From assembly GCA_022825855.1 (NCBI GenBank), contig JAJDWB010000013.1, positions 124,001-188,000 of the forward strand: a stretch of 64,000 nucleotides of DNA, read 5' to 3'. The translations under genes were made by a program, and so were the position numbers. Below the pieces are notes generated by a model. It did not search any database, had not been told where the DNA came from, and saw only the letters and a program-made list of their open reading frames with translations. The first letter of the stretch is position 1. Each line of letters opens with the position of its first letter. Positions 11,460 through 57,441 of this stretch are shown piece after piece. Source of the DNA: Dehalococcoidia bacterium (GTDB lineage: Bacteria; Chloroflexota; Dehalococcoidia; Bin125).

Positions 11460-11490
11460 GTTCAGTCCTCAGCGGGGTTTCGGCGTTCTC

Positions 11491-11571
11491 AGCGATCGGA
11501 TTCGATCGGATTTGATCGGGTTTGATCGGTTTCTGTTCAGGATTGCTCAGTTTTGCTCGACGAGTGATCGG
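11491..11571 (-). repeat. Helically phased 10-bp repeat array A, upstream of fumC
   Basis: Eight 9-base units begin at 11491, 11501, 11511, 11521, 11532, 11542, 11552 and 11563 on the + strand, so the steps are 10, 10, 10, 11, 10, 10 and 11. The core reads GATCGG in five units and GTTCAG, GCTCAG, GCTCGA in the others, with a T-rich lead (TTTGATCGG). On the minus strand, in the sense of fumC, the form is CCGATCAAA. It fills nearly the whole mdh-fumC gap. The mean spacing near 10.3 bp puts every unit on the same helix face. No known operator or repeat family is recognised. Confidence 0.85.
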
Positions 11572-33139: not shown

Positions 33140-33283
33140 TCGCACAGGGCCGCTCTGCTTCAGCGAAACCCGCACAGGATCGCACAAATTCGAACAAAAA
33201 CCGTACACAATCGAACAAAATCGAACAAACCAACCTGCGAAAACCCGTCAAAATCTGGCCCCAATTGATCAAAATTGATCGCC
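33140..33283 (+). repeat. Helically phased 10-bp repeat array B, in gatB / metallophosphoesterase gap
   Basis: The 453-bp divergent gap 33007-33459 holds a degenerate array. Block 1 has units of the form YCGNACAAA starting at 33140, 33170, 33180, 33190, 33201, 33211 and 33221 (steps 30, 10, 10, 11, 10, 10), e.g. TCGAACAAA. Block 2, weaker, has units at 33235, 33245, 33255, 33265 and 33275 (steps of 10), including TTGATCAAA. The A-tracts in register every helical turn should bend the DNA. On this strand the repeats point toward the metallophosphoesterase. A 5-bp hairpin CCAGT-AAAAC-ACTGG follows at 33299-33313. The rest of the gap shows no gene. Confidence 0.75.
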
Positions 33284-33459
33284 CTGATTGCGCGATCCCC
33301 AGTAAAACACTGGAAATCGGCGTCCGGACCGGCCGGAGGAAAAAAAGTGACCTGACCGCCCACTGACCGACCATGCGGCCTTTTTCCCAATCCGCACAGG
33401 CCCTAGTCTGCAAAGACCAATGCGCCGTGCGGGAGCGGCGTCGGGGATGTGTGCGCCGC

Positions 33460-34324: not shown

Positions 34325-34472
34325 CCCTCTCCCTCTGGGAGAGGGCTAGGGTGAGGGTCCCCGCAAATGCGGGAATCTTCCCCCCGCAAGGGCGGGAAGC
34401 TTCCCCCCGCGCAAGCGGGAAACTTGCCCCGCGAAGGCGGGGAGCCTGCCCCCGCAAAGGCGAGGGAGAGGG
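34325..34472. repeat. 148-bp REP/MITE-like element: inverted termini enclosing five hairpin units
   Basis: The ends are 11-bp perfect inverted repeats, CCCTCTCCCTC (34325-34335) and GAGGGAGAGGG (34462-34472). The left end continues as GGGAGAGGGCTAGGGTGAGGG, a form widespread in bacterial intergenic repeats. Inside are five short hairpins of the type CCCCGCAANNGCGGG starting at 34359, 34382, 34405, 34427 and 34450 (steps 23, 23, 22, 23), joined by AANCTT-like linkers. It ends 22 bases before the start codon of the AcuI-like gene. No transposase is present; it is probably a non-autonomous mobile repeat. Confidence 0.85.
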
Positions 34473-54828: not shown

Positions 54829-55617
54829 TCACGCACTGGCTTGCGACCGCAGTTCCTTTTCGACAAGGTCGGTGATCTCCGAGCCGGCCGAGCTTGATTG
54901 AGGACCGGGAATCTTCGCGATTCCCTCGGCAATCGCGTGCAGGGATTGCAAGACGAACGCCGGCTCGCGCTGCGCGCCGGCCTGGCGGATGGCCTGGAAG
55001 AGCGGGGTTTCGTTCTCGGCATCGCCGCCGTGTTGCTCCCAGAGCGGCCGAAAGTCTGTTCCCTGAATCGGATATTGCGCCCAGGTGACGGTCGGTCCGC
55101 GGTCCAGCTCTGTCGTCACCCGCTGCAGGACCATGCCGGAACGGTGGGCCCGCTCGGCGATGAGCTGCTGAATCACCTGTTGCCACGTGCCGATTGGACC
55201 ATCGGGCAAGGCGGGATGCAGATTGAGAGAGGCGAGGTTATCGCAGATCACATCGGTCACGACCAGCATGTATCCGGCCAGCATGGCGATCTCCGGGCGA
55301 TGACCGGCGATGCGTTCGTACAGGTAGGTGTCATAATCCCGACGCCAGGCGGCCAGCCCCTGGAGAGGGTCCGAGATCTTGCCGCCGACCGACTTGCGCC
55401 ACTCGCCCGAGCTTCGGGCGATCAGCGGAATGCCGGCGCGCTCGACATCGTCGAGGAAGGCGTCGGTGTTGGACGACTGACCGCGCTCGCGGTTGCAGAC
55501 GACGCAGACGATTTCGGCATCGAGGCGGCCATCGGCGATTGCGGCCTGAGCGGCGTTGAGCAGCTTGCGGGAGCTTGTGCCCCTGGCGGTGGCGAACCAG
55601 GCGATTCGGAGCGTCAT
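54829..55617 (-). CDS. purN: PurN-like formyltransferase (phosphoribosylglycinamide formyltransferase)
   Basis: Probably formylates GAR in purine synthesis with 10-formyltetrahydrofolate. 262 residues of the formyltransferase Rossmann fold: RIAWFATARGTSSRKLL at the N-terminus, CNRERGQSSNTDAF, the catalytic pair Asn/His in SLNLHPALP and the catalytic Asp in TELDRGPTVTW. It is longer than E. coli PurN (about 212), with extra C-terminal helices and an insert (GGKISDPLQGLAAWRRDYD), so another formyl acceptor is possible. No ribosome site. Repeat array C lies about 80 bp upstream in the same orientation. Confidence 0.8.
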   Translation of the reverse strand: MTLRIAWFATARGTSSRKLLNAAQAAIADGRLDAEIVCVVCNRERGQSSNTDAFLDDVERAGIPLIARSSGEWRKSVGGKISDPLQGLAAWRRDYDTYLYERIAGHRPEIAMLAGYMLVVTDVICDNLASLNLHPALPDGPIGTWQQVIQQLIAERAHRSGMVLQRVTTELDRGPTVTWAQYPIQGTDFRPLWEQHGGDAENETPLFQAIRQAGAQREPAFVLQSLHAIAEGIAKIPGPQSSSAGSEITDLVEKELRSQASA

Positions 55618-55697
55618 CGGTACGGATCCGATGATCGGACGAGAATCTCAGAGCAGGTGCAAGAATCTGCCTTGTGTAGCTTGGAAGTGCGGCTTGG

Positions 55698-55797
55698 CGT
55701 GTTCAGATTTATCCAGTTTTGTCCAGACAAGTCCAGCTCAGTCCGGCCTTGAGAGGCGTTGATCCAGCCGAATCCAGGGAGGTCCGGGCTCGTCCAG
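55698..55797 (-). repeat. Helically phased 10-bp repeat array C, upstream of purN-like gene
   Basis: In the 281-bp gap 55618-55898, ten units start at 55698, 55708, 55718, 55728, 55738, 55748, 55759, 55769, 55779 and 55789, steps of 10 with one of 11. The + strand core TCCAG or TCCGG occurs in eight units, at 55712, 55722, 55732, 55742, 55763, 55773, 55783 and 55793; the first unit has TTCAG at 55702 and the sixth (CTTGAGAGG) is degenerate. On the minus strand, in the sense of the purN-like gene, the form is CTGGACAAA. The core is conserved while the bases between are not, which argues against simple slippage. Nothing else is seen in the gap. Confidence 0.85.
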
Positions 55798-55898
55798 AGG
55801 GCTGAAATGTTCATCGCGGATGCCTCTTCGATCATTCCTGTGGGCGGGCGTCGACCATCTTATACGTACTGTCGTTCTACTGGGCCAATTGTGATGCG

Positions 55899-56096
55899 TC
55901 AGGCTTCGTCATTGAGTGCGTTGATGCGAAGTTCGGCGTCGGCGAGGAGTTGTTGCGCTTCGCGGCTGAGCTTGACGCCGTGCTCGTAGGCGTCCAGCGC
56001 CTTGTCCAACGGCAGACCGCCATCCTCGAGCTGGGTGAGGACGGTTTCGAGGTCGTCGACAATCTCCTCGTAGGAGCGCTCAGGTTCGTCGGGCAT
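55899..56096 (-). CDS. xseB: Exodeoxyribonuclease VII small subunit
   Basis: 65-residue helical-hairpin subunit that, several copies per XseA, forms exonuclease VII for degradation of single-stranded DNA. YEEIVDDLETVLTQLEDGGLPLDKALDAYEHG and the tail KLSREAQQLLADAELRI match the XseB family closely. ATG 56096 has GAGG nine bases upstream; an ATG three codons earlier is also possible. The gene overlaps the end of xseA by 17 bases. Confidence 0.94.
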   Translation of the reverse strand: MPDEPERSYEEIVDDLETVLTQLEDGGLPLDKALDAYEHGVKLSREAQQLLADAELRINALNDEA

Positions 56097-57441
56097 GCTG
56101 ATCATCCTCGTTGGTGGTTCTCGCGGCGACGCGGCCATCGGCGAATTGGATGGTGACGTCTTCATTCGGACTGAGCGCGGATGCGGCGGCGACGACCTGT
56201 CCGCCCGGCCGGGAGACGATGGTGTAGCCGCGTTCGAGAGTGGCGCGAGGGTTGAGTGCGGTCAAGCGAGAATCGCGGGCGGTCTGGCCGGCGCGCCAGA
56301 GCGCCACCTGACGTTCGATCACCTGGCTGAGATCGCGCCGCCGCCGTTCGACCTCGATCCTGAGCGTCGGCGCGTGCGGCGCGCCGCGTTCGAGTCGTTC
56401 GCGATAGAGCGCGACCTGTTGACCGTGCTGTGAGATCCGGCTGTCGACCGCGGCCTGGGCGTACTGCCGCAGAGCTGCCACGCGCGTCGCCTCTTCGACC
56501 CGATCGGGCACGGCCAGCTCGGCGGCCGCCGACGGGGTGGGCGCGCGCAAGTCGGCGACATGATCGGCGATCGACACATCGGTCTCGTGGCCGACGGCGG
56601 AGATGACCGGAATATCGCTGGCGAAGATTGCTCGTGCGACCGGCTCCTCGTTGTAGGCCCAGAGGTCCTCGGGCGAGCCGCCGCCTCGGGCGACGATAAT
56701 CACCTCAGGCTCGTCGACGGTCAGCAGATTCAGGTCTCGAATGGCCTCGGCGACAGATTCGGTCGCGCCCGCGCCCTGAGTCAGGCAGGGGGAGAGCAGC
56801 AATGAAGTCAGCGGCCAGCGTCTGGCGACCACCTGTTGGATATCGTGCCAGACGGCGCCGCTGGGTGAAGTGACCACGCCGATGCGCCTCGGATAGGTCG
56901 GAATCGGACGCTTGCGATCGGGATTGAACAGGCCCTCGGCTTCGAGGTTGCGGAAAAGCCGCTGGAACTCGGCCTGCAGGACGCCCTCGCCGATCGGCCG
57001 CAGCGCGTTGACGATGATCTGGAGGCTGCCCCGGGGCAGGTAGACATCGGCGCTGCCGTGGACGAGCACCTGGTCGCCCTGCGCGACCCTGATGCCCCGG
57101 TTCTGGTTGCGGAAGAACGCACAGGAGAGGGCCGCGTCGGTCTCGGCGTCGGCGAGGTCGAAGTAGTAGTGACCCGCGCCAGAGCGGTTGAAGCTGCGGA
57201 CCTCGCCCTCGATCCAGACATCGTTGAGTTGCGGATCGGACTTGAGCTGCGTGCGGATGTGCCGGGCGATATCGCCAACCGGCCGCGATTGCGGCGCGGC
57301 GGTTGGCGCAGGGTCGTCCCAGTCGATGTGGCGCTGCTGGGCGCGGCGGACGTTGAAGCCGGTCGGAGGTCGCTTGGGCATTGGTCGGTTCTTTGGTCGG
57401 TTGCCCTGGTCGTACGGAGTGTCACCCGTTGCCTTCGGCAT
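56080..57441 (-). CDS. xseA: Exodeoxyribonuclease VII large subunit
   Basis: 453 residues. An N-terminal OB-fold ssDNA-binding domain (VWIEGEVRSFNRSGAGHYYFDLAD) precedes the catalytic domain (YPRRIGVVTSPSGAVWHDIQQVV, IIVARGGGSPEDLWAYNEEPVARAIF, PVISAVGHETDVSIADHVADLRAPTPSAAAEL) and a helical C-terminus with the NPRATLERGYTIV motif. The first ~45 residues are a poorly conserved basic extension; an internal ATG at 57381 could be the start. A GC hairpin (57447-57461) sits right upstream of the 57441 ATG and includes its only purine-rich ribosome-site-like run. It follows efp by 89 bp. Confidence 0.94.
   Translation of the reverse strand: MPKATGDTPYDQGNRPKNRPMPKRPPTGFNVRRAQQRHIDWDDPAPTAAPQSRPVGDIARHIRTQLKSDPQLNDVWIEGEVRSFNRSGAGHYYFDLADAETDAALSCAFFRNQNRGIRVAQGDQVLVHGSADVYLPRGSLQIIVNALRPIGEGVLQAEFQRLFRNLEAEGLFNPDRKRPIPTYPRRIGVVTSPSGAVWHDIQQVVARRWPLTSLLLSPCLTQGAGATESVAEAIRDLNLLTVDEPEVIIVARGGGSPEDLWAYNEEPVARAIFASDIPVISAVGHETDVSIADHVADLRAPTPSAAAELAVPDRVEEATRVAALRQYAQAAVDSRISQHGQQVALYRERLERGAPHAPTLRIEVERRRRDLSQVIERQVALWRAGQTARDSRLTALNPRATLERGYTIVSRPGGQVVAAASALSPNEDVTIQFADGRVAARTTNEDDQHARRT

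Follow-up and report, generated by a model that had tools for sequence, protein, structure and literature searches.

A decamer array in the purN leader of a Dehalococcoidia bacterium as a candidate multi-site binding array related to a family of HTH proteins

We consider it somewhat probable that the decamer array upstream of a purN-like gene in a Dehalococcoidia bacterium (array C; positions 55702..55797, minus strand, of the 64,000-nucleotide stretch analysed, here called the window) is a partly decayed multi-site binding array, belonging to a system in which clade-specific words would be bound by helix-turn-helix (HTH) proteins and would serve both feedback on HTH synthesis and modulation of purN; the binding is predicted from sequence comparison. 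Decamer arrays occur in gene leaders genome-wide, mostly sense to the downstream gene. Their words match HTH protein clades, they are distributed across species together with the HTH family, and they are retained upstream of orthologous genes.

Array C lies in a 281-bp gap between an xseB-like gene (55899..56165, minus strand), upstream, and a purN-like gene (phosphoribosylglycinamide formyltransferase; 54829..55617, minus strand), downstream of the array. The genes were called from codon usage in the present analysis, and we take both names from the initial annotation. With the two genes encoded on the minus strand, the repeat unit reads CTGGA(C) in the direction of transcription, and the array comprises eight good copies of a sense unit CTGGA(C)NNNN. 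On the forward strand, TCC(A/G)G starts at 55712, 55722, 55732, 55742, 55763, 55773, 55783, and 55793, exactly where the initial annotation had placed it, with a weaker unit, TTCAG, ahead of these cores at 55702. The steps are three of 10 bp, one of 21 bp over a degenerate unit, and three of 10 bp, which bears out the earlier description of two runs 21 bp apart. At lag 10, the highest-scoring 40-bp segment of the gap has 26 matches; dinucleotide shuffling of the gap, repeated 5,000 times, never reached this score at any lag from 7 to 14, and the total of lag-10 matches in the gap gave p = 0.0002 against dinucleotide shuffles. A Fourier test, the check proposed originally, was not significant on its own (mononucleotide test on the 100-bp block, with the maximum taken over periods 8-13; peak 10.2, p = 0.125), so the periodicity comes from the recurring word, not from a general rhythm of bases. 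Since shuffled sequences failed to match the array and the orthologous gaps in five other species keep the same kind of word at 10-bp spacing, the claim that the array is non-random stands.

Orthologues of purN were found in all 15 genomes of the genus, which form the comparison set and are related, not independent. The purN leader contains an array in six species, xseB abuts purN in eight, and in one species the region is cut by a contig end. The six leaders with an array have in common a promoter-like motif, a Shine-Dalgarno-like sequence, and an ATG. The motif (GAACGACAGTACGTATAAGAT; 55857..55877, minus strand; GAACN4GTNC with a -10-like TATAAG) has a pairwise identity of 77% in the leader alignment vs 41% just downstream. 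The ATG, at 55814, opens a leader ORF of 66 codons (55614..55814, minus strand) that holds array C and whose stop codon overlaps the purN start (ATGA); the start codon is kept in all six species and the overlap in five of the six. When the ORF was tested for protein-coding selection, neither a codon-position signal nor a third-position excess was seen. Invariant columns make up 33 of 108 in the array vs 9 of 86 in the 3' part of the leader. The GAACN4GTNC motif was found in 36 of 77 HTH-gene promoters, 24 of 86 array leaders, and 2 of 255 controls, the leader windows being longer than the control windows. This palindromic motif, which HTH genes and array leaders have ahead of them (as at 55857-55877), resembles the Gram-positive SOS box; an SOS/LexA reading is at best tentative, as no such box was found upstream of recA in the source genome (G000). 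Separately, a dispersed repeat (CCCTCTCCC..GGGAGAGGGTTAGGGTGAGGG) adjoins arrays in three purN leaders (L095, L097, and L099) and in other gaps.

Array C is one of many. A lag scan of the window and of its 333-kb contig gave three and seven lag-10 clusters, respectively; lags 7, 8, 11, 13, and 14 gave none there, and lag 10 was the only short lag, multiples of 3 aside, with several clusters. All seven arrays on the contig have the same sense relative to the following gene, and their words are CGAAC, CGATC, CTGGAC, CTGAC, and CTGAA. Sister arrays in the window include a CGATC array (reverse complement GATCG; 11478..11550, minus strand), which G006 has retained ahead of the same gene, and a CGAAC array (33178..33231, plus strand) from the lag scan. 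Other arrays also keep their place upstream of orthologous genes across species, mostly at 85-97% protein identity. At one orthologous leader the word has switched with the spacing unchanged (L041 vs L107/L149), so that a model pairing arrays with HTH proteins needs regulator switching. The literature searched for such repeats in Chloroflexi, whether decameric or helically phased, yielded no description of them. A further decamer array (L272; G000:C17:166851-166879, minus strand) lies inside an open frame of a presumably recG-like gene, and the window holds a tandem repeat (CCCCGCAAAGGCGGGAAGCTTCC; 34359-34462; about 4.6 copies of a 22-23 bp unit).

The initial annotation had taken array C as the cleanest evidence for selected helical phase. 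That description is not supported, and selected phase itself is supported only in part: the spacing is a rigid 10, not 10.5, and the pattern is strictly strand-specific. Because a 10.5-bp phase predicts a mixture of 10- and 11-bp steps and steps across arrays are overwhelmingly 10 (for CGAAC, 85 steps at 10 and 7 at 21), helical phase fits poorly. Among pairs at exactly 10 within HTH coding sequences, 125 are sense and 0 antisense, a bias that helical phase leaves unexplained and that further weakens the claim, as do the invariant columns of the purN leader alignment, where a test for 10-bp rhythm was not significant (p = 0.20). The bases between cores are unrepeated in array C, as first described; because relatives repeat an AAAT spacer, this lack of repetition looks like decay.

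The arrays occur together with a family of HTH proteins limited to the genus. The A3 profile of the family matched in 10 of the 15 genomes, and arrays are found with the family in those ten species and are almost absent from the five without it. These five have 0-4 copies of a dyad element that accompanies arrays (described below), and an A4 profile gave one marginal match each in two of them; over the 15 genomes, the HTH family and dyad copies are correlated (rho 0.91). The HTH genes are scattered over many G000 contigs. Pfam gave weak HTH_23/HTH_38 matches and otherwise only generic family matches, and AlphaFold2 modelled a confident N-terminal HTH (helices 10-52) and long helices (pLDDT 91).

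Arrays also lie inside the HTH genes. A strong lag-10 array was detected in 32 of 39 family-2 HTH coding sequences vs 0 of 201 ordinary genes, with almost none at other lags; because a period of 10 is not a multiple of three, selection on the protein is an unlikely cause. Nearly every HTH gene with an array has a single word, and the word (CGAAC, CGATC, CTGGAC, CTGAA, or CCAACC) follows the protein clade: on the family-2 tree, 7 word changes are required vs 16.9 after shuffling, and none of 200 shuffles was as low, the labels having been assigned by pattern and, for the tree, two of them by hand. Ten CTGGAC-word proteins form one branch, which G000 L176 adjoins; an eleventh, L261, has a long branch and an unsure place. 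In the recognition helix, Pro goes with CGATC in two branches; this residue-word association is at most suggestive, because most columns follow phylogeny. Nine near-identical G000 paralogs (L166-L174; contigs C10, C13, C22, C9, C19, and C17) and some others have no clear array. These nine share an approximately 80-bp promoter within a unit that starts at CTCCGCAAACCAC, ends near the stop codon, and has unrelated flanks, with neither terminal repeats nor target duplications seen at its ends. In some family-1 HTHs (L164, L190, L199, and L200) a SEC-C metal-binding motif comes right after the array-encoded segment.

The words of arrays agree with those in HTH genes of the same genome in the case of CGATC and CGAAC; CTGGAC agrees likewise in G002, G005, G006, G010, and G012. 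CGATC triples number 10 in G000 and 15 in G006, with one two-mismatch match elsewhere (G014), and a CGATC-word HTH gene is found in just these two CGATC-array genomes. CTGGAC-type triples number between 23 and 58 in G002, G005, G010, and G012 (58, 48, 25, and 23 in descending order of count), 7 in G006, and 0-4 in other genomes; they are numerous only in genomes with CTGGAC-word HTH genes. An exception is G009, which has such a gene and no intact CTGGAC triple. Array C is the sole intact triple of this type (CYRGAC x3) in G000, where no CTGGAC-word HTH gene was found and the coding sequence of the clade gene, L176, has CTGAC, with units that match a G000 array at C10:89200. Because the only CTGGAC triple thus occurs in a genome whose clade gene now has CTGAC, array C is best read, from these comparisons, as a worn, decaying member of the genus-wide set, and its matching protein may have moved to another word. 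For the same reasons its partner in G000 is uncertain; some genomes are fragmented, so HTH genes that appear missing may be unassembled.

A conserved dyad (CCCAGYAAAACACTGGRRAYC) comes after many of the arrays; it is present in 24 copies in G000, with 0 matches to the reversed control pattern; one copy (CCCAGTAAAACACTGGAAATC; 33298..33318, plus strand) follows the CGAAC sister array in the window. The dyad is typical of the genus: counts per genome there range from 0 to 52, and ten genomes outside it have 1-3 each, about the reversed-control level. All but one of the G000 intergenic dyads with a called downstream neighbour share its orientation, and over three genomes 62 dyads are in the same sense as the downstream gene and 17 opposite. 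Six lie in frame within genes of the HTH family described above. In 65 copies the dyad symmetry is accompanied by imperfect pairing, five of the eleven pairs forming in fewer than 60%, and by little covariation in the stem; on these grounds an RNA hairpin was rejected, and the pattern would fit a DNA site. In L050, L055, and L058 the 5-bp centre is inverted with respect to the array, the ortholog of L050 (L150) having the other orientation, and L148 (G014:C40:1594-1950) contains three tandem dyads at exact 168-bp steps.

In the model that we favour, the decamer arrays would be specific to the genus and would each offer several binding sites to paralogous HTH proteins. Every clade of paralogs would have its own 4-6 base word, placed every 10 bases in its own coding sequence and in transcribed leaders, and array C would carry the word of the L176 clade. 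We infer binding, oligomerization, and regulation together with its sign: several HTH subunits would line up on adjacent units along one DNA face, as the period of 10 suggests; binding immediately 3' of the purN leader promoter would modulate purN transcription; and an array within an HTH gene would give feedback on that protein's own synthesis. Words and proteins look like matched, newly described protein-and-site pairs, and word and clade could also be travelling together by descent. More tentatively, and at rather less than even confidence, there may be a lineage-specific scheme in which each paralog's out-of-codon-register array is made up of its own recognition word, also present in dozens of cellular gene leaders, with protein and word co-diverging as insulated regulatory or self-dispersing channels.

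Two other explanations of the arrays are unlikely but have evidence on their side. The array might act in the transcript, for example by loading Rho (YC at 10-nt intervals) or as a leader-ORF attenuator. The units are C/A-rich with YC each 10 nt, CTGAA arrays place stop codons in all frames, and the leader start codon and Shine-Dalgarno-like sequence are conserved; most arrays are in sense with the downstream gene, and the strict sense rule inside HTH genes is what chiefly keeps a role at the RNA level or in the direction of transcription under consideration. However, YC spacing alone cannot account for the conservation of a 5-6 base word, nor for the correspondence between word and HTH clade, array C has no C-over-G bias, arrays within coding sequences lie in translated regions, the dyad pairs poorly as RNA, and Rfam found only tRNAs, and no known structured RNA or riboswitch, in seven array-bearing stretches of contig C10. 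It is similarly doubtful that the arrays have a selfish or mutational origin, being remnants of HTH-gene units that dispersed with their promoter, start codon, and array, their spacing maintained by local tandem duplication and without function in the purN leader. Leaders and HTH genes do have these three parts in common, words homogenise inside an array, and the nine near-identical HTH units, with their sharp ends, were recently dispersed; set against this, the leaders show no visible HTH remnant, arrays hold position upstream of orthologous genes, and promoter and ATG are conserved above the intervening sequence.

Intrinsic curvature, with A-tracts phased at 10 bp and no specific protein, is very improbable: many units carry AAA at 10-bp steps, but array C has few A-tracts, and curvature requires neither strand bias, nor specific words, nor an HTH partner. 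Chance, to which the Fourier result would leave room if taken alone, is scarcely conceivable as the origin of array C, being contradicted by the lag-10 shuffles and by the orthologous, sister, and HTH-gene arrays.

The proposed binding arrays resemble several known systems in part. Phage small terminases (TerS) and their pac sites, as in SPP1/SF6, are alike in having an HTH protein, and a repeated site suits HTHs displayed by several subunits; here, however, sites are also dispersed in cellular gene leaders and words are paralog-specific. The array-linked proteins do have an N-terminal HTH domain, but PHROGs and Pfam gave no TerS family or fold (one sub-threshold Phage_terminase HTH match), Foldseek gave no significant match to PDB or viral structures, and no relatives were found in IMG/VR contigs, so a terminase reading was rejected. 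Operators of the OmpR/PhoB type are likewise tandem direct repeats of about one helical turn, with several units near genes; the units of PHO boxes are 11 nt, whereas the period here is 10, the array lies downstream of a promoter-like motif and inside the putative regulator's coding sequence, and the HTH proteins lack a receiver domain in Pfam scans. In lambda, the ori iterons bound by O protein sit inside gene O, as the arrays are embedded in the coding sequence of their putative binder; those iterons are longer and serve one replication origin, whereas the decamers are found with many paralogs and in dispersed leaders. BOX and STRR are modular short repeats with a palindrome, dispersed in gene gaps and limited to particular lineages. 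REP is also a class of repetitive extragenic element (PMC3733652). The arrays share these traits with all three and differ in that their copies are not near-identical, their words go by HTH clade, they are oriented with transcription, and their position is conserved among orthologs.

If this interpretation is true, the genus would offer many natural pairs of HTH protein and DNA word, with the word inside the protein's own gene, and thus a data set from which to learn HTH recognition rules and the way regulator-operator pairs diverge once duplicated. It would also mean that overlooked arrays with a 10-base period can fill dozens of gene leaders in uncultured Chloroflexota.
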